DNA from: Candidatus Pantoea floridensis
GTDB taxonomy: Bacteria; Pseudomonadota; Gammaproteobacteria; Enterobacterales; Enterobacteriaceae
Assembly: GCF_900215435.1 (NCBI RefSeq)
Contig: NZ_OCMY01000002.1
Span: 124,001-188,000, forward strand
Length of the DNA stretch: 64,000 nt
Reading direction: 5' to 3'
Position 1 is the stretch's first letter; the number at the start of each line of letters is the position of its first letter. Both the position numbers and the translations under genes were made by a program. Shown piece after piece: positions 2,867 through 24,994 of the stretch. A model generated the notes under the pieces. The model made no database searches. It was given only the letters and a program-made list of their open reading frames with translations, and was not told the DNA's origin.

Positions 2867-2889
2867 GCCAGCAACATCACGTTGCTGGC
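2867..2889 (-). terminator. Bidirectional terminator between the beta-helix and porin genes
   Basis: GCCAGCAAC / GTTGCTGGC is a 9-bp stem with a 5-base loop. Read on the minus strand it is followed by TTTATTTATTAATAA, a good intrinsic terminator for the porin operon. On the plus strand the tail is weaker (GTGATTATT). Confidence 0.7.
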
Positions 2890-2900
2890 GTGATTATTCG

Positions 2901-4172
2901 TTAGAAATCGTACTGCAAACTTAAACGGTTCTGCCAGAATTTCGCATCATACAGCGGCGAGGTTTGTACACCGGCAAAATCGGTGAGACTCAATCCTTTG
3001 AGCACGCCGCTGAAGGCCCAGGTAAAATAAACCAGATATTCAGACTGATTAATACTGTCTGAAGAGGCTGACGGTTTGAGATCCATAAACGAATACTGCG
3101 TACCAAGCGACAGGTTTTCATTCAGTACATAATTGAGATTGGTGGAATAGGCATTTCCGCTCCCCAAATCCTGAGTACTGGTGAAGAACGGTTGTGCGAA
3201 GTATGGACCCGAAGCGCTATTGTGCGCATATGGCACCACCAGCGATCCGTTGCCCCAACTGTTAGCGCTGGCAGCAATGTGATCGTAACCCAACTTCCAG
3301 CTCAGCGCAGGCGTGAAAGCGAGCGCCAGCTGAGCACCGTAGGACGTGCTGTTCACTTCACCTGCTAACGCTTTTCCGTCGCTGGTGCCGCGCATGAATT
3401 GTAGTCCGACATCCGGCTGGAATAACGTCTGCTGCCACTGGATGTGGCTTTCGCCATACACCAGGCGTGAATAGTCGGCGTACTCTTCATACCATAACTG
3501 ACCGGTTAGATTTTTATCGTCCCACTGCGATCCTCGTCCACCGCCAATGGCCCACATACCATTGGTGCGTTCATCAATATCCGTATAGGCGGTGGTGTTC
3601 AGGAACTGATCGTCACCCCACGGCTTATAGCGCCAGACTTTAGTGGCATGCAGATAATTGGTGCTGTCACCGTAATTGGCATCTACACCACGAAACAAAA
3701 TAGGGGTAATACGCCAGTCGTAGTCGCCCACGAACGGAATATTGATACGCTGATCGCCTGCGGTAATTTTAAAGTCATCCTGTTGCCAGCTTAAATAGGC
3801 TTCGCCGACATTGGTTTGGTTAGTGCCAATATCGCTAATGGTATGTGCTTCATCGGGATGATCGATACCGCGTAAAAATATTGCACTGACGCCCGCGCGA
3901 AAACCATATACCGGGGCGGTTTCATATTTCAGGCTACCACCGTAGCTGGTGGTGTCTTGATTAAAGCCTTTAGAAAAATACGCATTGTGCGTGGAGTAAT
4001 AAAGCGTACGCAGACTGCCACTAACCGTACCGCAGGTGAAAATATCGGTGAAACTCTCTACGCCGCTGGCGTCGTACTGACAATCGCTGATATTGCTCTG
4101 CGAGGCCGCCATTGCTACCGGAGCCAGAGGGAAAAACAGCGCAGCCAGTCCGACACTTTTCAGTGTTTTCAT
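2901..4172 (-). CDS. OprD-family outer-membrane porin
   Basis: I place the start at the ATG at 4172 (423 aa), with AGGGA seven bases upstream; a GTG at 4178 is in frame but less well placed. A signal peptide with a basic MKTLK start ends at about residue 22 (VAMA-A). The mature protein alternates aromatic strands and ends in YDF, as expected for a beta-barrel. The sequence resembles OprD-type substrate-specific channels, which admit small carboxylates and amino acids. It lies 28 bases after the FAD-oxidase gene on the same strand, so it is probably the last gene of the catabolic operon and the outer-membrane entry route for its substrate. That substrate link is inference from position. Confidence 0.75.
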   Translation of the reverse strand: MKTLKSVGLAALFFPLAPVAMAASQSNISDCQYDASGVESFTDIFTCGTVSGSLRTLYYSTHNAYFSKGFNQDTTSYGGSLKYETAPVYGFRAGVSAIFLRGIDHPDEAHTISDIGTNQTNVGEAYLSWQQDDFKITAGDQRINIPFVGDYDWRITPILFRGVDANYGDSTNYLHATKVWRYKPWGDDQFLNTTAYTDIDERTNGMWAIGGGRGSQWDDKNLTGQLWYEEYADYSRLVYGESHIQWQQTLFQPDVGLQFMRGTSDGKALAGEVNSTSYGAQLALAFTPALSWKLGYDHIAASANSWGNGSLVVPYAHNSASGPYFAQPFFTSTQDLGSGNAYSTNLNYVLNENLSLGTQYSFMDLKPSASSDSINQSEYLVYFTWAFSGVLKGLSLTDFAGVQTSPLYDAKFWQNRLSLQYDF

Positions 4173-4200
4173 TTGCACATCCCTAATTAAAATAAAATGA

Positions 4201-5589
4201 TTAATTCACACCCGGAATAGAGACATCCGGTAAAGTTTCACGGACTTCCCAGCCGCGTAATTTGCCGGGATTTAATAAATTATGCGGATCGCATGCCCGT
4301 TTCATTGCCACTACATCGGCGCGCACCGTGCCTTGCTTGCCATCTTCAATATGAATAACGTGCGGATTGTTTATTTTCACGCCGTTAGCGCGGTAAATAT
4401 CCATGATGGCGTTAAGACGATCTTCGTCGCTATAGCGCACCAGCGGCAAACCGCTACAGGTGATACTGCCGTTCATGTCGCGCAGGAATTCAATATGCGA
4501 CATCACTTCATCGGAGAGTTGCGCTTCCAGCGCTACAGCTTGCTGCTGATAGTTCTCCGCCTCATAGGCGGTTTGCAGGTAAGTGAGCGTTTTATCAATT
4601 TTCAGCGCCTGCAGCGTGGTGTGGTTCCAGCAATATTCGATCAGCGAATGGCCGCTGTTTTCCCCTTCAGCGAAATGGAGTGCATTGCGGCCAGCGTGTT
4701 GGGCTACCTGCGAAGATAGCAGTGCATCGCTTTCGCTGCCGACCACTGAAATCACGCCATGCTTACCCGCTACATCAGCAGCGGCCAGATCGGTGAAGTA
4801 ATCCAGCACCGGAGCGGCAAATACGGCAATCTGGCGTTTTACTAATCCCGGCGAGCGTGCCAGCGCATCGGCAAATGCCATCGCTGTTGGGAAATCGGCA
4901 AAGGTATCGAGGCGTTCTATCCAGTCATGGCAGGGCGCCAGCGCCAACTCGATCTCTAGCACAATGCCGTTACTGCCGTAGGCGTGATGCAGCAGCAGCG
5001 CGTCTGGCGCCTGTAACGTAATAATGCGCGGCGTCTCTTCCATGGTCATCATCCGCACTGACAACACGTTGCCTGGCGCGGCCAGCGGACCGTAATTGAT
5101 CGAGCCCACGCCGCCAAAGCCACCGCCGAACAGGCCGCCAAGCGTGGCCAGTTTCCACGTGGAAGGCATGCAGCGCAGTTCCCAGCCGAGCGGACGCGTG
5201 TGTGCCTCAAGCTCGCCAAGACGGATCCCCGCTTGCGCGCGCACCGTGCCGTGCCCCATGGCGGTAACGGCGTTGAGGCGTGTCATATCGACCATGACGC
5301 CACCGTTCAGCGGGATGAGTTGACCATAATTGCCGGTGCCGCCGCCGCGCAGATTGAGCGGAACACGCCCTTTGGCGCAGGCTGCGACGATATGCGTGAG
5401 TTCGCGTTCATCACGTGGGCGCACCGCCAGTTCAGCAAATTTCTCTTCCAGTTGGGGTTTCAGCACCGGGCTGAACCAGTGGAAATCACGCGACAGGCGC
5501 TTGACCTTCGGCGCTTCTTTGATCCAGTCAAGTTCAGGCAACGCCGCGACCAGCGCCGCCAGTGCAGACTGGCGATCGGAATCAGACAT
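4201..5589 (-). CDS. FAD-binding (PCMH/GlcD-type) oxidase
   Basis: A 462-residue flavoprotein. A PCMH-type FAD-binding domain covers about residues 50-230, with RGGGTGNYGQ (81-90) as the pyrophosphate-binding segment. The C-terminal FAD-oxidase domain ends with CDPHNLLNPGKLRGW, characteristic of D-lactate/glycolate dehydrogenase-like enzymes. Such enzymes oxidise 2-hydroxy acids or similar C-OH and C-N substrates. AGGA precedes the ATG. It is separated from the ABC permease gene by an 89-base gap that holds a REP-type inverted pair, so it may be expressed at a different level from the upstream genes. The substrate is unknown. Confidence 0.75.
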   Translation of the reverse strand: MSDSDRQSALAALVAALPELDWIKEAPKVKRLSRDFHWFSPVLKPQLEEKFAELAVRPRDERELTHIVAACAKGRVPLNLRGGGTGNYGQLIPLNGGVMVDMTRLNAVTAMGHGTVRAQAGIRLGELEAHTRPLGWELRCMPSTWKLATLGGLFGGGFGGVGSINYGPLAAPGNVLSVRMMTMEETPRIITLQAPDALLLHHAYGSNGIVLEIELALAPCHDWIERLDTFADFPTAMAFADALARSPGLVKRQIAVFAAPVLDYFTDLAAADVAGKHGVISVVGSESDALLSSQVAQHAGRNALHFAEGENSGHSLIEYCWNHTTLQALKIDKTLTYLQTAYEAENYQQQAVALEAQLSDEVMSHIEFLRDMNGSITCSGLPLVRYSDEDRLNAIMDIYRANGVKINNPHVIHIEDGKQGTVRADVVAMKRACDPHNLLNPGKLRGWEVRETLPDVSIPGVN

Positions 5590-5616
5590 GTTTTATTCCT
5601 GTGTAAAAAGGTTTTC

Positions 5617-5675
5617 CGTAGGGTCGCCATTTATGGCGACCTGGTAAGAAGGTCGCCATAAATGGCGACCCTACG
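5617..5675. repeat. REP-like inverted pair (BIME-like), CGCC stem type
   Basis: Two GTAG-headed hairpins in opposite orientation: GTAG at 5618 followed by the stem GGTCGCCATTTATGGCGACC, then its inverted copy at 5651-5675 ending in CTACG. Each half folds alone and the halves also pair with each other. It sits inside the catabolic operon, between the permease and oxidase genes, where it could stabilise or attenuate the transcript. Confidence 0.85.
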
Positions 5676-5678
5676 ATG

Positions 5679-6479
5679 TTAACTGGGGCTCATTTCACTC
5701 TCATGCCAAGCCGCCAGCACGCGGCGCGTCAGCCACGACATCAGGGCGAACAGCAGGAAGCCGGCCAGTGAAATCAGCAACAGCGCGGCAAACATCAGCG
5801 GGATATTCAGCTGATAACCGGCCTGGAGAATCTGGTATGCCAGGCCGGTATCGGTGCCGCCGGTGCCGGCAACGAACTCGGCTACCACCGCACCAATCAG
5901 CGACAAGCCGCTGGAGATGCGCAGCGCCCCGAAGAAGTACGGCAGCGCCGAAGGAATGCGTAACCGCAGTAGAATCTGCATCCGCGAGGCGTGATTGAGA
6001 CGGAAATAGCTCAGCAATCCTGGCGATACGCTACGTAAACCTTGGGTGGTGTTGGAAATGATCGGGAACACCGCCATCAGCGTGGCGCACACCACCAGCG
6101 ACAGCGTGGTGTCCTTCACCCAAATGATGATCAGCGGGGCGATGGCGACAATTGGCGTCACCTGTAAAAACACGATGTAAGGGAACAGCGCGGTTTCAAT
6201 AAAGCGGTTCTGCACCAGCAAAAACGCCACAATCGAGCCGATCACAATCGCCAGGGCAAAAGAGATCACGGTGATTTTCAGGGTGTAAAGTAGCGACATA
6301 AACAGCGTGGAAAAGTTTTGCACCAGGCTTTGCGCCACCACCAGCGGTGACGGCACCAGAAATGCCGGCACCTTAAAGGTGGTGACCAGAAACTGCCACA
6401 GCAGCAGCATGGCGATGGCGACGATGGCCGGGAACAGCCACTGCTGAAATTGACGATGGGCCGCTAACGGTTTCATCAT
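5679..6479 (-). CDS. ABC transporter permease, NitT/TauT (SsuC/ThiX) type
   Basis: A 266-residue inner-membrane protein with about six hydrophobic segments. The inner loop has the EAA-type binding-protein-dependent permease pattern (RLNHASRMQILLRLRIPSAL). The N-terminal half resembles SsuC, TauC and ThiX. Two adjacent ATG codons (6479, 6476) follow GGAGAG, and the ATPase stop overlaps them. With the ATPase and the periplasmic protein just upstream it forms one importer. Members of this class carry sulfonates, nitrate, cyanate or pyrimidine precursors; the neighbouring enzymes suggest a nitrogen-containing organic substrate. Confidence 0.85.
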   Translation of the reverse strand: MMKPLAAHRQFQQWLFPAIVAIAMLLLWQFLVTTFKVPAFLVPSPLVVAQSLVQNFSTLFMSLLYTLKITVISFALAIVIGSIVAFLLVQNRFIETALFPYIVFLQVTPIVAIAPLIIIWVKDTTLSLVVCATLMAVFPIISNTTQGLRSVSPGLLSYFRLNHASRMQILLRLRIPSALPYFFGALRISSGLSLIGAVVAEFVAGTGGTDTGLAYQILQAGYQLNIPLMFAALLLISLAGFLLFALMSWLTRRVLAAWHESEMSPS

Positions 6480-7309
6480 TGACTCTCCTGGCTGGCTGCC
6501 AACAGACCGCGCTGCAGCAGTTGGGCATAGTGAGTGAAGGTCTGGCTGACGCGGAATTCATCATCACGCGGCGAGGTGGCGTCAATGCGGATATCATCCA
6601 CCACGCGCCCGGGACGCGCCGCCATCATGATCACCCGCTGCGACAGGAAAACGGCTTCCTGAATCGAGTGCGTGACAAATACCACCGTCAGCTTCTGCTC
6701 CTGCCACAAATCGAGCAGATCGCTATCCAGCTTGTTGCGCGTGATCTCGTCCAGCGCGCCAAATGGCTCATCCATCAACAACACTTTAGGCCGCGTTACC
6801 AGCCCCCGCGCAATGGATACGCGCATCTGCATACCGCCCGAAAGCTCGCGCGGCAGCACGTGACCAAACTGGCCGAGACCGACCAGTTCGAGAATCTCGC
6901 GTACGCGGGTATCTGCTTCAGCACGCGGTACGCCGGCCAAATCGAGCGGCAGACGCACATTTTTGTGCACGTTGCTCCACGGCATCAGCGTGGCTTCCTG
7001 AAACACGAACGACAGTGGTAGATCGCGCTGGTTCTCACGTCGATCGCGGCGAAACAGCATCAGCTTGCCATCCGTCGGTTCAATCAACCCGGCGATCATC
7101 TTCAATAGGGTGCTTTTGCCGCAGCCAGACGGACCCAGCAGCGAAACAAATTCGCCCTGACGAATGGTGAGATCAACCGGCAGCAGCGCGCGCGTGCCGT
7201 TGGGATAGATTTTCTCTGCCGACAGCACCTCAATCGCCGGTGCCGCCGCCGAACGCGGCACCGCCTGCGCATCCTGGTTGAGCAGCGTTAGATGACTGGC
7301 GCTATTCAT
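6476..7309 (-). CDS. ABC transporter ATP-binding protein, NitT/TauT type
   Basis: A 277-residue ATPase. Walker A is GPSGCGKST (59-67); the signature LSGGMQ, Walker B VLLMDEP and the H-loop VTHSIQEA are all present, so it should be active. The sequence resembles SsuB/TauB-type subunits. It overlaps both neighbours by four bases (ATGA type), which points to translational coupling within one operon. It would power the permease next to it. The first 25 residues are an Ala-rich extension before the nucleotide-binding domain. Confidence 0.88.
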   Translation of the reverse strand: MNSASHLTLLNQDAQAVPRSAAAPAIEVLSAEKIYPNGTRALLPVDLTIRQGEFVSLLGPSGCGKSTLLKMIAGLIEPTDGKLMLFRRDRRENQRDLPLSFVFQEATLMPWSNVHKNVRLPLDLAGVPRAEADTRVREILELVGLGQFGHVLPRELSGGMQMRVSIARGLVTRPKVLLMDEPFGALDEITRNKLDSDLLDLWQEQKLTVVFVTHSIQEAVFLSQRVIMMAARPGRVVDDIRIDATSPRDDEFRVSQTFTHYAQLLQRGLLAASQESQ

Positions 7310-8277
7310 GGCAGTACCTTAACGTCTTGGATGAATTTCAGCGTGTAGCTGCCGTCAAACGGCACTTTGGCGGGATCGATCAGCTTGGTATCGACCAGCA
7401 GTTGCCAGGTTTGTTTGAGACGCGCTTCGGTCATGATGCCGATGCCGCCGGTTTGCGCATCGCCGCCGGTCAGCATCTGGTATTTCTTCATCTGCGCGAT
7501 GCCGAACGCAATCTGATCATCGCTCATCTGTGGGTTCTCTTTTTTGATCAGCACGTTACCGGCACTGGGATCGTGCAGATAGTTTTTCCAGCCCTGCATT
7601 GATGCTTTGACAAATGCCGCGACCGCGGCCGGACGTTTCTCAATGGTTGATTTCATGCACACGATGCTGTTGCCGTACGGCGGATAACCCCAATCGCTGA
7701 TGGGATACACATTGGCCTGCGCGTTAGCTTTCTGCACCGCATAAGGTTCCGAGGTGATATAGCCTTGCTGCACCAGCGTTTTATCGGCAAGGAATGGCTG
7801 AATGCTGAAGGTGTAAGGCCGTACGCGAGCATTTTTCAGCTTCAGCGCGCTCTGCGCCCAGGGCCAGTACGAGGTGTAGGCTTCGGCGGCCAGCAGGAAG
7901 GTTTTACCCTGCAAATCGGCTTGGTTTTTCACATCCGGATGGGTAAGAAAGGCAATCGCCGAGTGTTGGAAGGTGGTCGCCACCGGCATCGCTTCCACGC
8001 CTTGCTGCCAGATTTCCAGCGCCTGCATGTTATCGCTAATGATGCAGTCCGCCTGGCCTGCGGCCATCAACTGCATGGTGTGCACCTGCGGGCCGCCCAT
8101 TTTGATGGTGACGTCGAGACCCGCATCACGATACAGATTCTGCGCCTGCGCCTGATAGAAGCCGCCGTGTTCGGCCTGCGCGTACCAGTTGGTCATAAAG
8201 GTGAATTTTTCAGCCGCCATGCCGGGGGCCGAGAGGGCCAGCGCAAGTGCGGCAACAATGCTCAATGTTTTTTTCAT
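7306..8277 (-). CDS. ABC transporter periplasmic substrate-binding protein, NMT1/THI5-like
   Basis: A 323-residue protein with a classic signal peptide (MKKTLSIVAALALALSAPGMA, cleavage near residue 21). The start is the ATG at 8277 with AGGGA upstream; an in-frame TTG at 8280 is less likely. The mature part, with FMTNWYAQAEHGGFYQAQAQ and the QADCI segment, resembles NMT1/THI5-like binding proteins such as the pyrimidine-precursor binder ThiY. That similarity, together with the amidohydrolases in the operon, favours a small N-heterocycle or N-acyl ligand. The exact ligand cannot be read from the sequence. Confidence 0.82.
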   Translation of the reverse strand: MKKTLSIVAALALALSAPGMAAEKFTFMTNWYAQAEHGGFYQAQAQNLYRDAGLDVTIKMGGPQVHTMQLMAAGQADCIISDNMQALEIWQQGVEAMPVATTFQHSAIAFLTHPDVKNQADLQGKTFLLAAEAYTSYWPWAQSALKLKNARVRPYTFSIQPFLADKTLVQQGYITSEPYAVQKANAQANVYPISDWGYPPYGNSIVCMKSTIEKRPAAVAAFVKASMQGWKNYLHDPSAGNVLIKKENPQMSDDQIAFGIAQMKKYQMLTGGDAQTGGIGIMTEARLKQTWQLLVDTKLIDPAKVPFDGSYTLKFIQDVKVLP

Positions 8278-8286
8278 CAATAGTCC

Positions 8287-9165
8287 CTAGCGCGGTTGTA
8301 AAAAGGCGGCTGCGTCGTTGTGATCTAATACTTTGCCTTGCCACTGGCCGGTGCCCCACGCCGGTTCGGCGCGTGTCACCCACGTCATCTGATGGATTTC
8401 CGTAATAACCTGTGCCCAGCTTTCCGCCAGCGACTCGAGGATCGCCGCACCCTGCTCAGGCGTGGAGGGCAAGGGATCGCCAATTACGCCGCTCGGGCCG
8501 AAATCATAGGAAGCCCAAGCCGCCATTGGTTTGTTGGTTGAAAGCGTCGGACAGGGGAATGCCGGCGGATAGTTGGCGACCGCTTTATCCATCTGCACGG
8601 TATCCGGTGCCAGCGCCAGCATCAGCGAGGTTTCGGCGTGACCGGCGTGCATCGCCATTTGCCGCTCTTGGTCGTCCATAAAGCTTTCAGCGCAGTTCGG
8701 CACTTTGAAGGTGTCTTGCATGATGATGATCATGTCGCCGTGGCGCAGGCGCAGCTCGCGTGCCGCCATCTGTAGCGGCTGCGGCTGGCCACCGTGACCA
8801 TTAACCATCAGAAATTTGCGGAAACCGGCGCGATAAAGCGATTCGCCAATCTCCAGAATGGTGTGCAGCAGGGTTTCGCCGGTCAGCGTCAGCGTACCGG
8901 GAAAATGCAGATGCTCATCTGATTTGCCGTAGGTAATCGGCGGGATGGCGTAAGCCGGAATGTCAGCGGGTAAACGCGCCAATGCATGACCGACCACCCC
9001 CGATGAGATTACGCTATCCACCGCGCACGGCAGATGCGGACCATGCTGCTCAATCGCGCCGGTCGGCAACACGATAACGGTATTGGCTTTATCGTCCAGC
9101 GTGGCGATGTCAGTCCAGCTCAGATACGGCAAAAAGCGGTTTGCCGGAATATAACCATGCAACAT
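8287..9165 (-). CDS. Creatininase-family amidohydrolase
   Basis: The start is placed at the ATG at 9165, six bases after GAGGAG, giving 292 residues; a longer in-frame start at 9195 has no better site. Metal-ligand motifs of the creatininase family are visible: GAIEQHGPHL (Glu39, His41) with Asp50, VNGHGGQ (121-127), and HAGHAETS (His173-Ser180, with Glu178). Family members hydrolyse cyclic or linear amides, for example creatinine to creatine, or formamidopyrimidines. It lies between the RidA and ABC transporter genes. The substrate is not known; an amide or lactam released from the imported compound is the simplest guess. Confidence 0.8.
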   Translation of the reverse strand: MLHGYIPANRFLPYLSWTDIATLDDKANTVIVLPTGAIEQHGPHLPCAVDSVISSGVVGHALARLPADIPAYAIPPITYGKSDEHLHFPGTLTLTGETLLHTILEIGESLYRAGFRKFLMVNGHGGQPQPLQMAARELRLRHGDMIIIMQDTFKVPNCAESFMDDQERQMAMHAGHAETSLMLALAPDTVQMDKAVANYPPAFPCPTLSTNKPMAAWASYDFGPSGVIGDPLPSTPEQGAAILESLAESWAQVITEIHQMTWVTRAEPAWGTGQWQGKVLDHNDAAAFLQPR

Positions 9166-9179
9166 TTGAACTCCTCGTG

Positions 9180-9650
9180 TTATTGCGGCAACCACGCCGT
9201 GGCTTCAACTTCGATTAAAACGTCCGCACTCGGCAGCATTTCACTCACCTGCACCACGGTAGAAACCGGCGGCGCATCGGGGAAAAATTGCTTCCGTACC
9301 CGGCTGTAGTGGGGGAAGTGATCGAGATTGCGGAAATATTGCACCAGCTTGAAGACATCGCTCATCTGACCGCCCGCGCTTTCGATGGTGGCGCGAATGC
9401 TTTCCAGCACGTACCAGCTCTGCGCCAGAATCGGCCCCTCTTTGATGTCGGTAGAGAATTCACCCGTACGACCCAGCAGGCGCTGCGCTGCTTGCGGAAT
9501 GTCGTCGTAACCGCGCACGATAGTGGCAGTTTGCGGATTCACCGGAATAATGCCGGAGAGGAAAATAAAGTCGCCCGCGCGTCGCCACGCAGCATATTTC
9601 GCCAGCGGTTTTCCCGCTCCTTCATCAAGCGCCATTTGTTGTTTCTCCAT
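9180..9650 (-). CDS. RidA-family protein (enamine/imine deaminase type)
   Basis: About 156 residues from the ATG at 9650; a second start at 9635 has GGAG nine bases upstream and is also possible. FLSGIIPVNPQT near the N-terminus and VEVEATAWL at the end are hallmarks of the RidA/YjgF/UK114 fold. These trimeric proteins hydrolyse reactive enamines or imines; RutC does this for aminoacrylate in pyrimidine breakdown. Its place beside two amidohydrolases suggests it clears or converts an unstable deamination intermediate. The gene overlaps the end of the upstream amidohydrolase by 26 bases. Confidence 0.85.
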   Translation of the reverse strand: MEKQQMALDEGAGKPLAKYAAWRRAGDFIFLSGIIPVNPQTATIVRGYDDIPQAAQRLLGRTGEFSTDIKEGPILAQSWYVLESIRATIESAGGQMSDVFKLVQYFRNLDHFPHYSRVRKQFFPDAPPVSTVVQVSEMLPSADVLIEVEATAWLPQ

Positions 9651-10824
9651 AACGCACACCGTTTTTTAGCCGATAGCGCTGGCGTTGACGTAACGGCCAG
9701 CTCGCCACATCGGCATCAGGAAATATCACCAAGTCGTTGCCCTGTAGCGCGTGGCGCTGGCAAATCAGCGCCGAAGCTTCATCAAACGCCGCGCCCAGTT
9801 GCAGGCTGAGCAAGCCGCTAAACAGCGTATCGAGCGGGTCATAACTACCGAACGGGCAGAACGCATCTTGTACGTTGTCGGCACCGAGCAGCAGCGGAAT
9901 GCCTAACGCCTGTGCCTCTTTCACCAACGTCAAACCGCGCTGACGTGGCGTGCGGCCTGGCACCGCGTCCTGTAACAGCAGGTTGGTGAGCGGCAGCGCA
10001 ATCAGCCTGACCTTGTGTTGTGCCAGCACCGCAAGAATCTGCGCTGCGTCATCCTGCTGTGACAGCGCACAGCTGTGGCTACAGGTGATCTGCCCGCTAA
10101 ACGGATGCTGCTGCAAATAGTGCGCCAGCCAGCGTAATCCCTGCGCTTGCGGGTTAAGTTCTTCATCAATATGCAGATCGACATCCAGCTGCCACCGCTC
10201 TGCAGCATCCAGCAGATGCTGAAACGCCTGCGCATCCCAGTTGCTGCTGTGAATAAAGCCGCCCAACAGCGCGCCTGGACCGCTGGTCGCCACCTGTGCG
10301 GCAATGTGCTGCGCATCGCTGGCATCGGTGAAGAAGGGCAACGGAGCCAATGCTACGCGTTCGATGCTGCACAGCGGATGGTGCAGATCGCCCATCACTT
10401 GCCACGCTAATGGTGCATCAACCGAGAACCAGTCAATGTGCGTGCGCAGCAAACCTACGCCGGCTTCTGCCGCCCAGTGCAGCGCCTGCGTGGCGCGCTG
10501 CTGCAAATCTTCGGCGTTCCAATGCACGCGATCCTGATGCATCGCCGCAATCGCCGCCAGCAGCCCTGGTTGTTGCGCCGGGCTCCGTTCGATGGTGAAG
10601 GTTTTATCCAGATGCGCATGCGGCTCGACAAAGGCCGGTAACACCAGCGCACCGTGGAGCGCCAGATAACCCGCAGGTTGTGATGCGTTGGTCGGTTCAA
10701 ATTGCAGGCCTGAGGCGTTGAAATGCAAGGTCGCCAGTTGCGGTTGGTTGTTTATCAACGGCCAGTTTTCTGGCAATAACCAGCGCGGCAAACGTGCGCC
10801 TGTTGCACCTAAAAAGCGGCTCAT
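9625..10824 (-). CDS. Cytosine-deaminase-like metal-dependent amidohydrolase
   Basis: The start is the ATG at 10824, which overlaps the upstream stop (ATGA); this gives 399 residues and removes an unlikely N-terminal extension. Metal-binding motifs follow the CodA pattern: VEPHAHLD (His69, His71), a His in DLHIDEELN near 205, SHSCAL near 243, and GADNVQD with its Asp near 316. CodA-like enzymes deaminate cytosine, isoguanine or related rings, or open cyclic amides. In this operon it probably acts on the imported ring compound. The overall resemblance to cytosine deaminase is clear but the N-terminal 60 residues are divergent, so I do not call it codA. Confidence 0.78.
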   Translation of the reverse strand: MSRFLGATGARLPRWLLPENWPLINNQPQLATLHFNASGLQFEPTNASQPAGYLALHGALVLPAFVEPHAHLDKTFTIERSPAQQPGLLAAIAAMHQDRVHWNAEDLQQRATQALHWAAEAGVGLLRTHIDWFSVDAPLAWQVMGDLHHPLCSIERVALAPLPFFTDASDAQHIAAQVATSGPGALLGGFIHSSNWDAQAFQHLLDAAERWQLDVDLHIDEELNPQAQGLRWLAHYLQQHPFSGQITCSHSCALSQQDDAAQILAVLAQHKVRLIALPLTNLLLQDAVPGRTPRQRGLTLVKEAQALGIPLLLGADNVQDAFCPFGSYDPLDTLFSGLLSLQLGAAFDEASALICQRHALQGNDLVIFPDADVASWPLRQRQRYRLKNGVRYGETTNGA

Positions 10825-11774
10825 AAATCCAGCACCAGCAGAGGAGAATGGGCGCGTGAACAGCACAGCACGATGCAATCATTGGCAGCACGTTCGTGCT
10901 GGCTCAGCACATCATCGCGGTGATCGGGGTCGCCCGCTAATACGCCGGTGATGCAGGCGCCGCACATGCCTTGTTCGCAGGAGAGTTCGATCGCAATGCC
11001 CGCGTCCTCGAGCACCTCGGCGATGCTTTGATCGGCGCTAACGGCGAAGCGCGCACCGGAAGAGGCAATTTCGATTTCAAAAGCGCTATCAGCAACAAGC
11101 CGCGGTGCGTCGCTGGGCCTGAAGCGCTCGCTGTGCAGCTGGTCGAGTTTCCAGCCCTGTTGCTGCGCCAGCTGCTGTAGATGATCCATAAAACCTGCGG
11201 GACCGCAGTAGATCAATGCGCTGTTATGCGGCTGTTTGAGATCGTCCGGGATGCGCTGACGCAGGCTGTCGCTTTCGCTGCTGTAGTGAATGACCGCGTG
11301 CGGCCCCAACGTTGCCAGACGTTCACAAAAGGCCAGTTCATCGGCGCGTTTCAGATAGAGATGCAACGTGAAATCCGCCTGGCGTGCGGCTAATGCTTCG
11401 GCCATAACCAGCAGCGGCGTTAAACCGATACCGGCCGCAAACAGCAGCGTGCGCGGCGCCTGCGGCAGCGGGAAATGGTTGCGCGGAGAAGAGATCTGCA
11501 AGCCATCGCCCGCTGCCAGCTGCTGATGCAGCCAACGCGAACCGCCGGTTGAGCGCGCATCCAAACGCACGCAGATTTGGTAATGATTGGCGGCCGTGGA
11601 GCAGAGCGAATACTGGCGTTTACCGCAGCCGGGAATCTCCACATCAATATGTGCGCCGGGCGTGAAAGGCGGCAGCGGCTGGTCATCTTCACTCGCCAAT
11701 GTGAGTAATACATTGCCTGCACCGTTGGACTGCTTTGCGATGACGGTGACAGCCAGGGAATCTGTCTGCTTCAT
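10821..11774 (-). CDS. PDR/VanB-type oxidoreductase (FMN/NAD(P)H reductase with plant-type 2Fe-2S domain)
   Basis: A 317-residue reductase. An FNR-like flavin and nicotinamide domain fills about residues 1-220, with LLFAAGIGLTPLLVMAEAL as the nucleotide-binding loop. The C-terminal ferredoxin domain has CEQGMCGACITGV and a fourth Cys in VLCCSR. VanB-type reductases pass electrons from NAD(P)H to a Rieske oxygenase, but no oxygenase lies in this operon or elsewhere in the window. It is the first gene of the minus-strand operon and faces the LysR gene across 145 bases. It may serve an oxygenase encoded elsewhere or the FAD oxidase downstream. Confidence 0.85.
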   Translation of the reverse strand: MKQTDSLAVTVIAKQSNGAGNVLLTLASEDDQPLPPFTPGAHIDVEIPGCGKRQYSLCSTAANHYQICVRLDARSTGGSRWLHQQLAAGDGLQISSPRNHFPLPQAPRTLLFAAGIGLTPLLVMAEALAARQADFTLHLYLKRADELAFCERLATLGPHAVIHYSSESDSLRQRIPDDLKQPHNSALIYCGPAGFMDHLQQLAQQQGWKLDQLHSERFRPSDAPRLVADSAFEIEIASSGARFAVSADQSIAEVLEDAGIAIELSCEQGMCGACITGVLAGDPDHRDDVLSQHERAANDCIVLCCSRAHSPLLVLDL

Positions 11775-11919
11775 AGTTTGTCTGCCTGAACAGGGATGTC
11801 ATCAGCCGCAAAGCCGCGCAAACCCTTGTTTTTATCATGGCAGCGATTATTATTTTGCCATGTGTAAGCGTCCATCTGTTTAATTCGCATGATGCGTTGC
11901 AAAAAAGAGAGCACCCTCT

Positions 11920-12840
11920 ATGTTCGCCTTCTCCCGATTTCTGCTCTATTTCACGGAAGTAGCCCGCCAGGGTTCACTGCGCAAGGCTTCTGAGGTATTG
12001 CACGTCTCCGCTTCGTCAATTGATCGACAGATACTCCGCGTGGAAGAACAGCTGGATATGCCGCTATTTGAACGTCATCCATCAGGATTACGTATGACCG
12101 CAGCGGGCGAAATTTTGCTGAATGCCGCGAAAAACTGGCAGCGTGAGTTTGGCCGCGTCTGCACTCAGCTGGACGATCTGCGCGGACTACGCCATGGGCA
12201 TGTGCATATCGCCACGATTGACGCCATCAACCGCGGCTTCTTTTCCTCGATCTTGCAACGGATCCGAGGAGAATATCCCGGCATCTCGTTTACGTTGACC
12301 ACCATGAGCAATATCCATATCGCCAATGCGTTAACCTCTGGCGATGCGGATTTCGGCATCATGCTCAATCCACAAAGCTCGCGCGAACTGCTGGTGAAAT
12401 CCTTTGCGGATTTACGCCTGGGGATTGTGGTGAGTAGCCAGCATCCGCTGGCGAACCGGGAGTCGATCCGCTTTAGCCACTGCGAATCCTGGCCGTTTAT
12501 CGTACCCGCAGCCCCGCTGATGCTGGCCGATCCGCTGGAGGCGCTGATAAACAGTTCAGGGATTAAAATTCAGGAAGTGGCGCGCACCAACAACATTCAT
12601 ATGCTGCGTTCGCTGGTACGCGATGACGTGGGAATTAGCCTGATGTGCTGGCTGGATATCGTGGATGAATATCGACGCGGTGAACTGAAGTTTATTCCGC
12701 TGATTGATAGCGTGCTGAAGCCATTTACGCTGTCGCTGTGCGTGGCGCCACAGCGGCAACTTTCGATTGCCGCTTCGATGATGCTGCGCGAACTGGAGTC
12801 ATTTTTTGCGTTGATGCAGAGTGAGGAGTTGCTGGCTTAA
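11920..12840 (+). CDS. LysR-family transcriptional regulator of the divergent catabolic operon
   Basis: A 306-residue LysR-type protein. The N-terminal winged helix-turn-helix is clear (GSLRKASEVLHVSASSIDRQ, then LFERHPSGLRMTAAGE), followed by a substrate-binding domain from about residue 90. Its divergent position next to the reductase gene is the usual layout for a LysR activator of an adjacent catabolic operon; the shared 145-base gap (11775-11919) should hold its operator. I could not single out an operator by eye. The inducer is probably the imported compound or a metabolite of it. Confidence 0.85.
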   Translation: MFAFSRFLLYFTEVARQGSLRKASEVLHVSASSIDRQILRVEEQLDMPLFERHPSGLRMTAAGEILLNAAKNWQREFGRVCTQLDDLRGLRHGHVHIATIDAINRGFFSSILQRIRGEYPGISFTLTTMSNIHIANALTSGDADFGIMLNPQSSRELLVKSFADLRLGIVVSSQHPLANRESIRFSHCESWPFIVPAAPLMLADPLEALINSSGIKIQEVARTNNIHMLRSLVRDDVGISLMCWLDIVDEYRRGELKFIPLIDSVLKPFTLSLCVAPQRQLSIAASMMLRELESFFALMQSEELLA

Positions 12841-14820: not shown

Positions 14821-16215
14821 TTACGAACGTAACGCCACCATTTTTTCGCTTTTACGCGCCACACGTTTGCGTTGCACAATGCGGCTGGCGGCGACCACTG
14901 CCAGCGTTAACAGGCCAGTGGCGATTATCTCTGGGCGATGCTGTTGATTAAACAGCATGGCAATCAACACGCCGACGATGAACACCATGGTCGCCCACGT
15001 CAAACCTGGGAACAGCCACATGCGATAGCTGAGCGTTTCGCCGCGCGCTTCGCGCTTTTTGCGCAGTACCAGATGTGAAGCGGCGATCACCAGATACACC
15101 AGTAGCGCAATGGCACCCGAGCTGGCCAGCAAAAATTCAAACACCGCGCTTGGTGCCAGATAATTGGCGATGACGGCGAGGAAGGCGGCTGCCGTAGAGA
15201 ACAGCACGGCAACCCATGGCGTACCGCTGCGGGTGGTGCGTGACACCATGGCCGGTGCATCCTGACGGCGTGACAGCGAGTAGATCATGCGCGATGCGGT
15301 ATACAGCGCCGAGTTAAGACAGCTACACACCGCGATTAAGACCACCACATCCACGATCTGTTTGGCGTACGGCACGTTCATCATCTGCATTGCCGTCTGG
15401 TAAGAGCCGGCTTTCATGAGTGACGGCGTATTCCACGGCACCAGCGCGACAACAATAAAAATCGACAGTAAATAGAACAACGCGATACGCCAGATCACTG
15501 AATTGGTGGCTTGGGTGATCTGCTTCTTCGGTTCGCGTGATTCCGCAGCGGCAATAGTGACGATTTCTGTTCCCATAAACGAGAACATGGTAGTGAGAAT
15601 GGCTGCCAGTACCGCGCTAATACCGTTGGGCATAAAGCCTTGCGTATCGTACAGATGTGAGATGCCTTGCGTGCTGCTACCCGGCATCAAACCAAATACC
15701 GCCAGGCTTCCTGCGCACAAGAACGCGACAATCGCCACCACTTTCAGCAGAGCAAACCAGAATTCGAATTCGCCATAGTTTTTCACGCTAAACAGGTTGC
15801 TGATGGTCAGGAACGAGGTGATCGCCAGCGTGTATTCCCATACTGCAACCTGTGGAAACCACGAATGCAGAATGGTGCCCGCCGCGTTGGCCTCCAGCGG
15901 AATCACCAGCACCCAAAACCACCAGTAAAGCCAGCCGATAGTGAACCCGGCCCAGCGACCGAGTGACTTGTCGGCATAGGTTGAGAAGGAGCCCGAATCA
16001 GGGGACGCCACGGCCATTTCCGCCAGCATACGCATAATCAGCACCACCAGCGCGCCCGCCGCTATATAGGCCAGAAGCACCGCAGGACCGGCTTCGGCAA
16101 TGGCATGACCTGAACCGACAAACAGTCCGGCACCGATGACGCCACCAATTGACAACATGCGGACGTGACGCGGTTTCAGGCCTTGAGCCAGTACATCGGC
16201 ATTCTGTGAACTCAT
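14821..16215 (-). CDS. gabP: GABA permease
   Basis: A 464-residue APC-superfamily transporter with about twelve membrane segments. The N-terminal LSIGGVIGAGLFVGSG, the GSFSTYADKSLGRWAG loop, WWFWVLVIPLEANAAG and SCLNSALYTASRM match E. coli GabP over nearly the full length. It imports 4-aminobutyrate by proton symport. GGAG precedes the ATG by eight bases. It follows gabT on the same strand after 102 bases, so the two are likely co-transcribed. The C-terminus is Lys/Arg-rich, and no defects are visible. Confidence 0.9.
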   Translation of the reverse strand: MSSQNADVLAQGLKPRHVRMLSIGGVIGAGLFVGSGHAIAEAGPAVLLAYIAAGALVVLIMRMLAEMAVASPDSGSFSTYADKSLGRWAGFTIGWLYWWFWVLVIPLEANAAGTILHSWFPQVAVWEYTLAITSFLTISNLFSVKNYGEFEFWFALLKVVAIVAFLCAGSLAVFGLMPGSSTQGISHLYDTQGFMPNGISAVLAAILTTMFSFMGTEIVTIAAAESREPKKQITQATNSVIWRIALFYLLSIFIVVALVPWNTPSLMKAGSYQTAMQMMNVPYAKQIVDVVVLIAVCSCLNSALYTASRMIYSLSRRQDAPAMVSRTTRSGTPWVAVLFSTAAAFLAVIANYLAPSAVFEFLLASSGAIALLVYLVIAASHLVLRKKREARGETLSYRMWLFPGLTWATMVFIVGVLIAMLFNQQHRPEIIATGLLTLAVVAASRIVQRKRVARKSEKMVALRS

Positions 16216-16317
16216 CTATATTTCTCCAAAGCGTCTCTCAGGCAGCACGCAGCACTGCCGGGTTACAACAGGTGAGAAGCCCAGCCCGCAGTGCGAGCTG
16301 GGAAGAGCGGCGAAAGC

Positions 16318-17580
16318 CTAAGAATCGTAATGTTGACTCAGCACGCTGCCGAGGATGTCCAGCGCCTGGCTGAACTGCGCATCAGGGATGGTGAGCGGAT
16401 AGAGGAAACGAATGACATTACCCTGTGGACCACATGTCAGCAGCAGCAGGCCTTGTGCCATCGCCTGTTGCTGAAGGGTCTGTGCCGTTTGTGCCGAGGC
16501 AAATTCCACTGCCACCATAGAGCCCAGGCCACGGATATCAATGATGGAAGAACAGCTGCTGCGCGCGCCGTGCAAGAAATTAATCAACTGAGCGCCGAGT
16601 TGTTCTGAACGTTCGCACAGTTTCTCGTCGGCAATCACGTCAAGTACCGCGTGGGCTGCAGCAATCGCCAGCGGATTACCGGCGTAGGTGCCGCCTAAGC
16701 CACCCGGTCCCGGCGCATCCATAATCTCGGCACGGCCGCTGACTGCCGAAAGCGGCATCCCGCCCGCGAGGCTTTTCGCCATGGTGATGAGATCCGGTTT
16801 TACGGCGTAGTGATCCATGGCAAACAGCTTGCCAGTGCGAGCAAAGCCGCTTTGCACTTCATCCGCAATCAGCAGGATGCCGTGTTCATCCGCCAATGTG
16901 CGCAAGCGGTTGAAGAATGCCGGCGGCGCGACGTGGAATCCGCCTTCACCCTGAATGGGCTCCAGCACGATGGCGGCAACATCCTGCGGCGCGATGTCCT
17001 GAGTAAAAATGTCCTGCAGGCTAGCTAACGCATCCTCTACGCTGATGCCGGTTACGCTGTTGGGATAGCGTGCGTGCCATACCGAAGCCGGCATTGGGCC
17101 AAAGTCGCGTTTGTATGGCGCCACTTTGCCGGTCATTGCCATGGTCATAAAGGTGCGACCATGGAAGGCGTTACCAAAGGTGATGATGCCGTGACGACGC
17201 GTGGCCGCTCGCGCCACTTTCACCGCGTTTTCGACCGCTTCTGCGCCAGTCGAGAAAAAGGCGGTTTTCGCTTTGCCAGCAATTGGCACCACGCGGTTTA
17301 GGCGTTCGGCCAACGCGACATAACTCTCATAGGGCGTGACCTGAAACGCGGTATGGGTAAATTTCTCTAACTGATCGGCAATCGCCTGCACGATGCGTGG
17401 ATGGCGATGACCGGTATTCAATACCGCAATGCCGCCGGCGAAATCGATCCAGCTATTGCCCTCACCGTCGCGCAGCGTGGCGTTTTCTGCGTGCTCGACA
17501 TACCACTGACAAAGATTGCCGGTACCGCGTGGCAGGGCATCATCTTTGCGTTGCTGCAACCGGCTGTTTTTACCTTCCAT
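16318..17580 (-). CDS. gabT: 4-aminobutyrate--2-oxoglutarate aminotransferase (GabT/PuuE type)
   Basis: A 420-residue class III PLP aminotransferase. It contains the phosphate-binding STGAEAVENAVK, the cofactor-contacting ADEVQSGFARTG and the Schiff-base lysine in TMAKSLAGGMPLSAV. Full-length similarity to GabT/PuuE is evident. It converts GABA to succinate semialdehyde, passing the amino group to 2-oxoglutarate. AGGA precedes the ATG. It sits between gabP (downstream) and a divergent MocR/GabR-like regulator, a compact GABA-utilisation unit. No succinate-semialdehyde dehydrogenase gene is present nearby, so that step must be encoded elsewhere. Confidence 0.88.
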   Translation of the reverse strand: MEGKNSRLQQRKDDALPRGTGNLCQWYVEHAENATLRDGEGNSWIDFAGGIAVLNTGHRHPRIVQAIADQLEKFTHTAFQVTPYESYVALAERLNRVVPIAGKAKTAFFSTGAEAVENAVKVARAATRRHGIITFGNAFHGRTFMTMAMTGKVAPYKRDFGPMPASVWHARYPNSVTGISVEDALASLQDIFTQDIAPQDVAAIVLEPIQGEGGFHVAPPAFFNRLRTLADEHGILLIADEVQSGFARTGKLFAMDHYAVKPDLITMAKSLAGGMPLSAVSGRAEIMDAPGPGGLGGTYAGNPLAIAAAHAVLDVIADEKLCERSEQLGAQLINFLHGARSSCSSIIDIRGLGSMVAVEFASAQTAQTLQQQAMAQGLLLLTCGPQGNVIRFLYPLTIPDAQFSQALDILGSVLSQHYDS

Positions 17581-17690
17581 AACATTTCCTTAGCGATATG
17601 CGTCTTTACAAATCATCAACAAACACGCTTATTTATCCCTGCGCTGAGGTATCATGCCAGAGCCACTTTTACAGAAAAGGAGGGAGCCAA

Positions 17691-19175
17691 TTGCGGAGTT
17701 TGTACGCAGATCATGTATTGGAGCGCATGCAGTTTATGCAGGAGGGGACGCTGCAGCAGCGTTTGCTGAGCTGTATGCAACTGGCTATCGCCGAGGGCAT
17801 TTTCCCGCGGGCTACGCGTTTGCCCGCCACGCGTGATTTAGCGCGCGAGCTGTCGGTGTCGCGTAATACCGTGCTTAACGTCTATGAAAATCTGATGGCG
17901 CAAGGTTATGTCACGGCGCGCACGGGCAGCGGCACCTGGATTGCGGAAAACTTGCCGGAAGGATCGCTGCATACGCCGCGCAACGCTGCCGTAATCGACT
18001 CAATGACGGCAAAACCGGCGGCGCTCTCAAAACGCGGGGCTTCGCTGCTGGGTCACGCCAATGCCTCACCTTATCAGTGGGGCGCGTTCGTGCCCGGAGC
18101 GCCGGATGTTACGCAGTTCCCGCATAAATTATTCAGCCAGATCCAGGCGCGGTTAAACCGCGAGCCGGATGTCGAACGGCTCATTTACAGCAGCCAGGGC
18201 GGCTGCATGCATCTGCGTGAAGCATTGGCGGAATACCTCAGCGTTGCGCGATCGGTGCATGCCAATGCCGATCAAATCATCATTACCGAAGGTATTCATC
18301 AGGCGGTGGATTTGGTCTCACGCGTACTGTGCGATCCTGGCGATCAGGTTTGGATCGAAGAGCCAGGTTACTGGGGCACGCGCAATTTGCTGCGCATCAA
18401 TGGGCTGAAAATACATGCCGTTGCCGTGGATGAGCAGGGACTAATCCCCGATTTACCGGCGCGTAGCCGTGCCCCAAAAATGATTTTTGTGACACCGTCA
18501 CATCAATACCCGCTTGGCGTGCACCTGAGCCTTGAGCGCCGTAAGCAGCTGCTGGACCTGGCGCGCAAGCATAAGACCTGGCTGGTGGAGGATGATTACG
18601 ACAGTGAGTTCCGTTTTTCGGGCCAGCCATTTCCGTCGCTGCAGGGGTTCGAGCCAGATGCACCCGTAATTTATATGGGCACCTTTAGCAAAACGCTCTA
18701 TCCCGCGCTGCGGCTCGGCTATCTGGTGGTGCCGAAAGCGTTAGCGCAGCCGCTGCGGGTAGCGGCGGCAGAGCTCTATCGTGGCGGTCATCTGCTGGTA
18801 CAGCGCGCGCTGGCAGAATTTATTCAGAAAGGCCATTACATGGCGCACATCCGCCGTATGCGTAAGCTTTACAGCCAGCGCCGACGCTTTATGGTCAGCC
18901 TGATTGAACGCTATCTCGGCGCGGCCTTTTTACCGCTGGTGAATCACGAAGCAGGCTTACATCTGGTGATGAACTTACCGATGGGATGCGACGATGTCGC
19001 CGTCGCCGCGCTGGCACTGCGGCGCGGCGTAAAGGTACGTCCGCTGTCGCAATATTACATGCATCCGCAGGAGCGACGCGGCCTACTGCTGGGTTTTGCC
19101 TGTGTCGATGAGCGGCAGTGCCAGGATGCATTTGGTACGTTGAAAGGGTGCCTGGCGGAGATGGGAATTATTTGA
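17691..19175 (+). CDS. MocR/GabR-type PLP-dependent transcriptional regulator
   Basis: I choose the TTG at 17691 as start: AAGGAGG ends seven bases before it, much better than any upstream codon, giving 494 residues. The N-terminus is a GntR winged helix (RDLARELSVSRNTVLNVYEN, GSGTWIAE). From about residue 110 it is a fold-type-I aminotransferase-like domain with the PLP lysine in GTFSKTLYPALRLGY and the Asp pair VEDDYDSEF. Such regulators sense PLP and an amine; B. subtilis GabR activates gabT in response to GABA. It is divergent from gabT across 110 bases and very probably controls gabTP. Confidence 0.85.
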   Translation: MRSLYADHVLERMQFMQEGTLQQRLLSCMQLAIAEGIFPRATRLPATRDLARELSVSRNTVLNVYENLMAQGYVTARTGSGTWIAENLPEGSLHTPRNAAVIDSMTAKPAALSKRGASLLGHANASPYQWGAFVPGAPDVTQFPHKLFSQIQARLNREPDVERLIYSSQGGCMHLREALAEYLSVARSVHANADQIIITEGIHQAVDLVSRVLCDPGDQVWIEEPGYWGTRNLLRINGLKIHAVAVDEQGLIPDLPARSRAPKMIFVTPSHQYPLGVHLSLERRKQLLDLARKHKTWLVEDDYDSEFRFSGQPFPSLQGFEPDAPVIYMGTFSKTLYPALRLGYLVVPKALAQPLRVAAAELYRGGHLLVQRALAEFIQKGHYMAHIRRMRKLYSQRRRFMVSLIERYLGAAFLPLVNHEAGLHLVMNLPMGCDDVAVAALALRRGVKVRPLSQYYMHPQERRGLLLGFACVDERQCQDAFGTLKGCLAEMGII

Positions 19176-24500: not shown

Positions 24501-24994
24501 CACCAGTTGCACTCTTGCGTTGGCCCGGTGCCGGTTGTCGCATGCAGTCCATACTGTTCTGCCAACAGGAACGTTTGTTGGCTTTCACTCAGCAGTGAAG
24601 TCTTACCGCTGTCCTGCGGCCCGATGACCAAAAACCACGGACGATCGCGCAGCCAGGGCTGATAAAGCCGATAACACATGCGCCGCCAGTATGTCCGCTG
24701 TTCACTTAATCCGACGTAGCGCAGGGTTGATACTGCATCATAGAAGCGGTGATTGCTCACCGCAGAAACGGGCGCCCGGCGGGCAAACGGCGTGAAGAGT
24801 TTGCCAGACATCCAGCTGAAGCAGCGCGCGATCCACGGCCACACGGCCCAGAACAACAGCAGGCCGACTAAGATGGCGCGAGGCCACTGGCTTGCAAGGG
24901 GAAACCAACGACCAATCGCAATCAGCGGACCAATCCACCAGATCACTGCGCTGACCACAAGAGCAAATATAAGTATAAAAAGATGACGAAACAT
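21560..24994 (-). CDS. tssM: Type VI secretion inner-membrane protein TssM (IcmF)
   Basis: A 1144-residue TssM. Two membrane segments lie in the first 60 residues and a third near 405-430 (LVGSVLVLLFLSGAGWGLL). A cytoplasmic GTPase-like domain lies between them with Walker A GPQDSGKT (125-132). The rest is periplasmic, with the C-terminal region that contacts TssJ. TssM forms the membrane complex with TssL and TssJ that anchors the baseplate and spans the periplasm. The length is normal for the family and no breaks are seen. GGACAG precedes the ATG, and it starts 13 bases after tssL. Confidence 0.92.
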   Translation of the reverse strand: MFRHLFILIFALVVSAVIWWIGPLIAIGRWFPLASQWPRAILVGLLLFWAVWPWIARCFSWMSGKLFTPFARRAPVSAVSNHRFYDAVSTLRYVGLSEQRTYWRRMCYRLYQPWLRDRPWFLVIGPQDSGKTSLLSESQQTFLLAEQYGLHATTGTGPTQECNWWLTRDAIWIDTPGSWAQSEDSVRADKARTSLLRLLRRKRGFPPIDGIFLCLDAHWLLQASLSEHKALADTLRARLLGCANDARCDLPVYLMLSHLDQLPGGASLLAMMSDNLRRQGIGFSIEAGQKHAEQAFAALLVRISQYVLELIHDVNSETERHQLLQLIESLGTLSRPLFSLINQIFPSSPVGYEVQLRHIWLGSARQIALDPLNVATSWGSSSTTHPTTELWQSGFDHAITERHILTSGGQRSAAVAIRRLVGSVLVLLFLSGAGWGLLRYYQWEKDYIGYVNATFDETRRLVREVPATQRPGENLIAAYEQLGYMNAQLESVDTLPLNPYVEHLALNDAATATWHRHLLKIFWPAVQAYIVDALQQDANTHKDDVYDTLKVYMMLVDPAHRDPVALNNWFMARWDRFAPPGYASNNKTLFGYHLKALFSLAATPALKPDVNLVRLARVRAAEIPQQMRVINRLRESSHALAMPDVTLANAAGSDVMLTLRRKSDATVNDVAVPGFYTRSSYRDVVLPEVENMSKAVLEEESWVMADKDSASNLEMVTATQRLMDETRKLYLLEYANHWADFIKDIRARPVQSIDDAASLARQLADPSSSLANLIRFITRETSLTGRDDAGATSWFDRQRYSLQKQKRDIVDEISGDRSRFKLTPEQAVEDRFQPLRRLGLELAKSNVGNDSLQRTFNELYNLLAAASVRLNSSESNAQSPDDGLKRARIDAARYPDPVRSVMMDLIERGQSQTLAQIRQKLSSNTASLTTGEGKNIIANRYPFSTTAKNEIGINDFSRLFAKDGSLQRFFDQNLASLVDVNQRPWRAKDPSLISAGTVRSFESAAKIRESWLNSSGNMALTFFLTPMTLSSNISEAVLDIDGQVIRYSHGQSQPERVEWPGPKGGTYIRLTFKANDGSLQTAMFEGPWALFRLYDRATVSNMSSDTRELLMMLNGMPGSFAFTIRSAQQNFPLWSRALRNFKCP

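Follow-up and report, generated by a model that had tools for sequence, protein, structure and literature searches.

A minus-strand run of nine genes and a divergent LysR-type regulator gene lie in the 64,000-nucleotide stretch of Candidatus Pantoea floridensis DNA analysed here (the window), on contig C2 (741,572 bases) of a 5.45 Mb genome. Here we describe this run, which encodes a porin, an ATP-binding cassette (ABC) importer and five further proteins, and propose that it serves to take up pterin and dismantle it for nitrogen. All ten genes were found where a preliminary description of this DNA had placed them (Table 1). In transcription order the nine encode a VanB-type reductase, a CodA-like amidohydrolase, a Rid-family protein, a creatininase-family amidohydrolase, a periplasmic binding protein, the ABC ATPase and permease, a flavin adenine dinucleotide (FAD) enzyme and the porin. 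The intergene distances are -4, -11, +14, +9, -4, -4, +89 and +28 bases, and the three distances of -4 are thus ATGA overlaps, which had also been noted earlier. The nearest named relative found, a 729 kb plasmid of Pantoea sp. BRR-3P, matches at 97.8% across the whole region. Gene starts follow the annotation of this sister plasmid and were then checked within the window; the longest open reading frames exceed the likely starts in some genes.

The nine genes likely form a single transcription unit, given their spacing, a hairpin at the 3' end, and a conserved region with a promoter-like site between the LysR and reductase genes. This region is conserved over nine aligned loci, the window included, which span Pantoea to Erwinia endophytica and Chimaeribacter. 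Overall, scans returned 5 promoter-like sites against a shuffle mean of 5.6 (no excess) and 16 terminator-like sites against 12.4 in shuffles (standard deviation 3.9; about equal), so that any single site of either kind is weak evidence. A repetitive extragenic palindromic (REP) element, with matches at many places in the genome, fills part of the 89-base gap and is not part of the operon's function.

Table 1. Features of the operon and of the satellite locus (window positions unless a contig or locus is named)
Feature	Position	Strand	Remarks
Terminator-like hairpin, operon 3' end	2867..2889		minus strand: 10-pair stem, then T-rich tail
Outer-membrane porin, weakly OprD-like	2901..4172	-	Pfam OprD 25.8 bits, cut-off 25
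FAD enzyme, PF01565 fold	4201..5589	-	
REP palindrome between permease and FAD enzyme genes	about 5617-5674		inverted repeat read directly
ABC permease	5679..6479	-	Pfam BPD_transp_1
ABC ATPase, NitT/TauT type	6476..7309	-	Pfam ABC_tran; best NCBIfam matches include models for nitrate and taurine ATPases, under cut-off
Periplasmic binding protein SBP1, NMT1/THI5-like	7306..8277	-	
Creatininase-family amidohydrolase	8287..9165	-	Pfam Creatininase, 244.6 bits
Rid-family protein	9180..9635	-	Pfam Ribonuc_L-PSP
CodA-like amidohydrolase, 399 amino acids	9625..10824	-	Pfam Amidohydro_3
VanB/PDR-type reductase	10821..11774	-	Pfam Fer2 is the C-terminal [2Fe-2S] domain; NCBIfam reductase models below cut-offs
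Conserved putative promoter/operator region	11846..11896	-	palindrome CGCATCATGCG 11896-11886, then TGGACG-N17-AATAAT 11874-11846
LysR-type regulator, divergent	11920..12840	+	Pfam HTH_1 and LysR_substrate
Satellite locus: 2-oxoglutarate (2OG)-Fe(II) oxygenase, orphan THI5-like binding protein (L075:9407-10387), deaminase	L075:7926-11810, contig C2		major facilitator superfamily transporter and TetR regulator follow
Satellite deaminase	C2:328,349-329,806		about 190 kb from the operon

Recurrence of the gene set

A search with the creatininase-family protein, which is therefore present throughout by design (59-97% identical), gave 57 named loci, many of them from metagenome assemblies. A match counted if it covered 40% of the query and scored above 100 bits (above 70 for TetR), with identity floors of 55% for the deaminase, 50% for Rieske, 30% for 2OG, 33% for VanB-type, 38% for flavodoxin-type, 40% for TetR and 60% for LysR proteins. 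The FAD enzyme, the Rid protein and the binding protein each occur at 55 loci, the ATPase at 53 and the permease at 51, the last two counts possibly taking in unrelated ABC genes; two cut contigs (L045 and L046) account for some apparent losses. These five genes stand together with the creatininase-family gene at 50 of the 57 loci, at least seven of the nine at 36, and all nine at 16, which shows that the grouping is not chance. Clusters with the same parts also occur in Rhizobium and Roseobacteraceae, and in alphaproteobacteria the genes of the set stand in a different order.

The regulator varies: a LysR-type protein was found at 21 loci, a RutR-like TetR protein at 24, neither at 12 and both at none, at the thresholds used. 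In an order-level sample the creatininase-family protein occurs in two of 148 genomes (E 1e-60), the present one included; complete Escherichia coli genomes gave no megablast match. At four Pseudomonadaceae loci (L029, L030, L031 and L057), which have no CodA-like gene in the locus table, a betaine/choline/carnitine-type (BCCT) transporter gene adjoins the operon, and at three of them the ABC ATPase and permease are missing, so that a different importer may take their place.

The encoded proteins and their nearest relatives

The closest solved homologue of the FAD enzyme is 6V42, with a full-length match well above those to other PF01565 enzymes and far closer than that to any other solved structure. 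The entries 6V42 and 6V43 were released on 2020-12-02 under the PDB title "flavin oxygenase involved in folate catabolism", and by homology we propose the window enzyme as a putative pterin-ring flavin oxygenase. The earlier view that the gene set matches no pathway is amended accordingly, given this homologue and the like clusters in Rhizobium and Roseobacteraceae. In the open-licence literature we found no paper for the 6V42 codes, nor any for the operon's gene set or a pterin-ring catabolic cluster. The clusters compared with 6V42 differ from the window operon in two respects: they carry a flavodoxin-type NAD(P)H reductase in place of VanB, and a PRK07583-type deaminase scoring 702 against a cut-off of 403, where the window's CodA-like protein falls below at 222.

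We propose the VanB-type reductase as the predicted electron donor to the flavin oxygenase. Over the 57 loci a VanB-type reductase occurs at 31, a flavodoxin-type NAD(P)H reductase at 20, neither at six and both together at none. A VanA-type Rieske partner (PF19112) was looked for in the present genome and not found; other Rieske families were not sought. Seventeen loci do bear a Rieske gene; 16 of these have the flavodoxin-type reductase, one has neither reductase, and none has VanB. The nearest approach is L062, where VanB occurs with a distant Rieske match of 30% identity, under the floor. Two unrelated reductases that exclude one another are easier to reconcile with a two-component oxygenase than with a Rieske system, given that this genome has no VanA-type oxygenase and that none of the 17 Rieske-bearing loci carries VanB.

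The CodA-like enzyme retains His69, His71, His218, Glu221, His250 and Asp316 in all 41 aligned sequences, the metal-binding positions of the amidohydrolase fold. Its nearest solved structures are cytosine deaminases (best 101 bits); it nevertheless falls below every NCBIfam cytosine deaminase cut-off (222 against 403, 108 against 438, 101 against 483), and a cytosine pathway was rejected on this ground despite the full set of metal ligands. We propose it as a putative deaminase of pterin or of a ring-opened aminopyrimidine. The pterin deaminase treated, with Arad3529, in PMC9513972 (Variovorax sp. F1), an amidohydrolase that acts on folic and pteroic acid, also has 399 amino acids and is encoded in V. 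paradoxus upstream of a gene annotated as an endoribonuclease. The window gene lies likewise upstream of the Rid gene, a likeness that makes homology between the two a lead only.

In the Rid protein a serine occupies the column of RidA Arg105 in 41 of 41 sequences, an alignment that comprises the window, one Rhizobium protein and loci L024-L065, leaves out loci L009-L023, and takes E. coli RidA as its reference. The Arg105 that marks RidA imine deaminases is thus missing, and the usual RidA chemistry cannot be taken for granted; the best solved relative is 3LYB (268 bits). Four further alphaproteobacterial Rid proteins, inspected by eye, also read P-V/A-S-T at this column. The creatininase-family enzyme lies above the Pfam cut-off for the superfamily (PF02633), with its Glu/His/Asp and His-Glu motifs, and E49, H51, D60, H134, H183 and E188 are invariant in 21 of 21 rows; we propose it as a putative lactam or amide hydrolase of the pathway.

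The binding protein belongs to the THI5/ThiY-like branch of NitT/TauT proteins. Its nearest structures bind aminopyrimidines or thiamin; it shares their fold and NMT1 domain, at only 15-18% identity. The porin, a putative outer-membrane entry, was earlier called OprD-type, an assignment that stands but is marginal.

A satellite locus with a deaminase

On the same replicon as the operon, an orphan binding protein 44% identical to the operon's own is encoded beside a 2OG-Fe(II) oxygenase and a deaminase (Table 1). The deaminase aligns over its full length with 2PAJ at 286 of 464 identical positions (62%) and scores 749.6 bits with PRK12393 (cut-off 543), placing it in that family. No ABC permease or ATPase was found among the ten proteins scanned there (the three genes and seven neighbours). 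The position of this orphan beside the deaminase suggests that two binding proteins may bring related substrates to one shared permease, and makes doubtful the earlier idea of a route for one substrate only.

The same three satellite genes adjoin the operon's LysR gene in Klebsiella, Rahnella, Raoultella and Prodigiosinella. By megablast, all ten plasmid records that match the operon also match the satellite, with Klebsiella and Rahnella partial at the DNA level; these records are related and so do not count as ten independent events, and two more match the satellite oxygenase only. In a family sample of 149 genomes the core occurs in five, the deaminase in seven and both in four (hypergeometric 8.7e-6, or 1.5e-4 without our own genome, relatedness ignored).

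Coupling across the wider set is looser. Deaminases of at least 55% identity are linked to the operon at 23 of the 57 loci. Among 54 core-bearing genomes (the 57 loci minus L016, L045 and L046), 31 have a deaminase, 23 linked and eight elsewhere; the genome-wide search covered 34 genomes and gave 11 matches, three linked (L025-L027) and the eight unlinked. The remaining 23 lack it at the threshold used, so the deaminase fails as a constant companion of the core, and it is an entry module, not a fixed part.

Proposed pterin breakdown and its alternatives

Based on these observations, we suggest that the operon imports pterin (2-amino-4-oxopteridine) or its lumazine form and dismantles the ring for nitrogen, a proposal to which we give a probability of about 0.7. 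The most economical reading of the core is uptake of pterin or lumazine, reductase-fed flavin oxygenation and hydrolytic opening. In the order of steps and products that we infer, the porin would pass the compound across the outer membrane and the THI5-like protein would deliver it to the ABC importer, whose permease the orphan binding protein probably also uses. The 2-amino group of isoxanthopterin-type compounds would be removed by the PRK12393/2PAJ-type satellite deaminase, and that of the operon's own substrate, or of a later intermediate, by the CodA-like amidohydrolase. With electrons from the VanB-type reductase, the FAD enzyme would then oxygenate the pyrazine ring, after which the creatininase-family hydrolase would open the lactam or amide so formed; the Rid protein may handle a reactive imine or enamine. 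The preliminary description's dedicated uptake-and-breakdown operon for a nitrogen heterocycle is upheld, and its guess of a pyrimidine-like substrate came near the mark, since the pterin skeleton consists of fused pyrimidine and pyrazine rings.

Several points weigh against this proposal. No substrate tests for these proteins were found in the literature, the function of 6V42 is that of a PDB entry title and not of a paper, and the reading of the satellite deaminase takes 2PAJ to be the isoxanthopterin deaminase. VanB-type reductases usually partner Rieske oxygenases, and with only the VanA type sought, the reductase's role toward the FAD enzyme is a tentative one. The CodA-like enzyme and the 2PAJ-type deaminase make two deaminases in one pathway, which leaves the role of the former ambiguous. 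Parts of the set are also less constant than the core: the CodA-like gene occurs at 35 of the 57 loci, VanB at 31 and the porin at 18, the annotation of L079 has neither a CodA-like gene nor a reductase, and the Rid protein of L078 does not match the window's at E 1e-3. The 23 core-bearing genomes without the deaminase include 11 of the 16 searched from Pantoea and near relatives (L009-L024 and L063, without L016). Among 299 genomes around a betaproteobacterium, the core occurs in 23, the deaminase in 13 and both in four (hypergeometric p 0.012, relatedness ignored).

The alternative that survives best, though we consider it unlikely, is that enzymes recruited from pterin-acting relatives degrade some other heterocycle, bicyclic or aminated; oxidised purines, hydroxytriazines and the pyrimidine moiety of thiamin are examples. 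The PRK12393 family has 8-oxoguanine deaminase and triazine hydrolases among its relatives, a thiamin binder is another close relative of the binding protein, and two alphaproteobacterial clusters have genes for a solute carrier family 23 protein and for an enzyme of the xanthine dehydrogenase type nearby. The atrazine plasmid pADP-1 encodes a 46% relative of the CodA-like enzyme next to a BMP-type importer, close to the cyanuric acid genes; this relative is the sole member of the window's set there, bar distant LysR and ATPase matches, and we therefore keep the triazine idea as part of this alternative. However, the FAD enzyme is far nearer to the folate-catabolism enzyme than to any other solved protein, and the genome's own deaminase, at 62% identity to 2PAJ, reaches only 385 bits with the 8-oxoguanine deaminase model (cut-off 532).

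A Rut-like oxidative pathway for uracil or thymine, whose likeness the preliminary description had noted, is very improbable. The Rid protein, the combination of flavin enzyme and reductase, and the RutR-like regulators of some relatives recall that system, but RutA, RutB and RutD are unmatched among the ten operon proteins, RutC scores 50 against 169, the Rid protein has no Arg105, and the FAD enzyme is of the different PF01565 fold. The Rut transporter is the RutG permease, where the window has an ABC importer. A pathway for creatinine or a lactam with the creatininase at its head is just as improbable, as family membership (245 bits) is offset by the equivalog score (TIGR04448, 112.7 bits against 235), so that EC 3.5.2.10 is not assigned. 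Most metal-site positions are kept in this protein, but glycine stands at the position of Glu122, which we take to be a creatininase metal ligand, and the genes annotated next to the sister-plasmid operon include neither a creatinase nor a sarcosine oxidase; the creatinine-like substrate suggested earlier was dropped on these grounds. Least probable of all is that the genes are merely neighbours with no common pathway, as the REP-bearing gap before the FAD enzyme gene and the frequent absence of the porin might suggest, against the recurrence of six genes together in 50 relatives and of the set, reordered, in alphaproteobacteria.

If the pterin proposal is true, the operon would supply genes for a degradation route about whose genetics little is known. 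Pterin deaminases are singly known already, and 6V42 shows that a folate-catabolism flavin oxygenase has been studied. The isoxanthopterin deaminase is attributed to Hall et al. 2010 in PMC5270733 and PMC11121863, and the Variovorax enzyme was cloned in 2022, the fate of its deaminated products being left open in PMC9513972.

The bacterial fate of the pterin ring after deamination is poorly known. In old work with Alcaligenes, McNutt reportedly observed conversion of isoxanthopterin to xanthine-8-carboxylate. The satellite amidohydrolase belongs to the same family as the isoxanthopterin deaminase (presumably 2PAJ), and here its gene stands outside the operon, next to those for the 2OG oxygenase and the orphan binding protein. 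A bolder possibility, to which we would give somewhat less than even odds, is that operon and satellite together make up a complete, widely spread and undescribed bacterial route of pterin ring opening. In such a route, held just as tentatively in its details, the ring would be cleaved by a flavin oxygenase fed by VanB or, interchangeably, by a flavodoxin-type reductase, together with a lactam hydrolase of the creatininase family and a Rid protein that lacks Arg105, and swappable entry modules (a 2OG or Rieske oxygenase, the isoxanthopterin deaminase, an additional binding protein) would feed in different pterins, for example from folate fragments or insect pigments.

The gene set offers proteins that can be tested for roles in uptake, in oxidation of the ring and in its opening, in three classes of proteobacteria, and suggests a function behind the labels "FAD-binding oxidoreductase", "creatininase family protein" and "RidA family protein". 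Folic acid and insect pigments contain the pterin ring system, and the proposal bears on how folates and pteridine pigments are turned over in soil, on plants and on insects.

A PaoABC/xanthine dehydrogenase-type molybdenum enzyme (L077:1-3661) adjoins the Rhizobium cluster; enzymes of this type oxidise pterins or pterin aldehydes, and this one may therefore be an entry step. Elsewhere in the window, a TRZ/ATZ-type amidohydrolase (58914-60356) has PRK06038 as its best NCBIfam match, at 348 bits against a cut-off of 609, and so is given no specificity. By the names used in the sister plasmid, a gamma-aminobutyric acid (GABA) permease and a GABA transaminase with a divergent pyridoxal phosphate-dependent (MocR-like) regulator lie at 14821-19175, and a type VI secretion TssM-like gene at 21560-24994.

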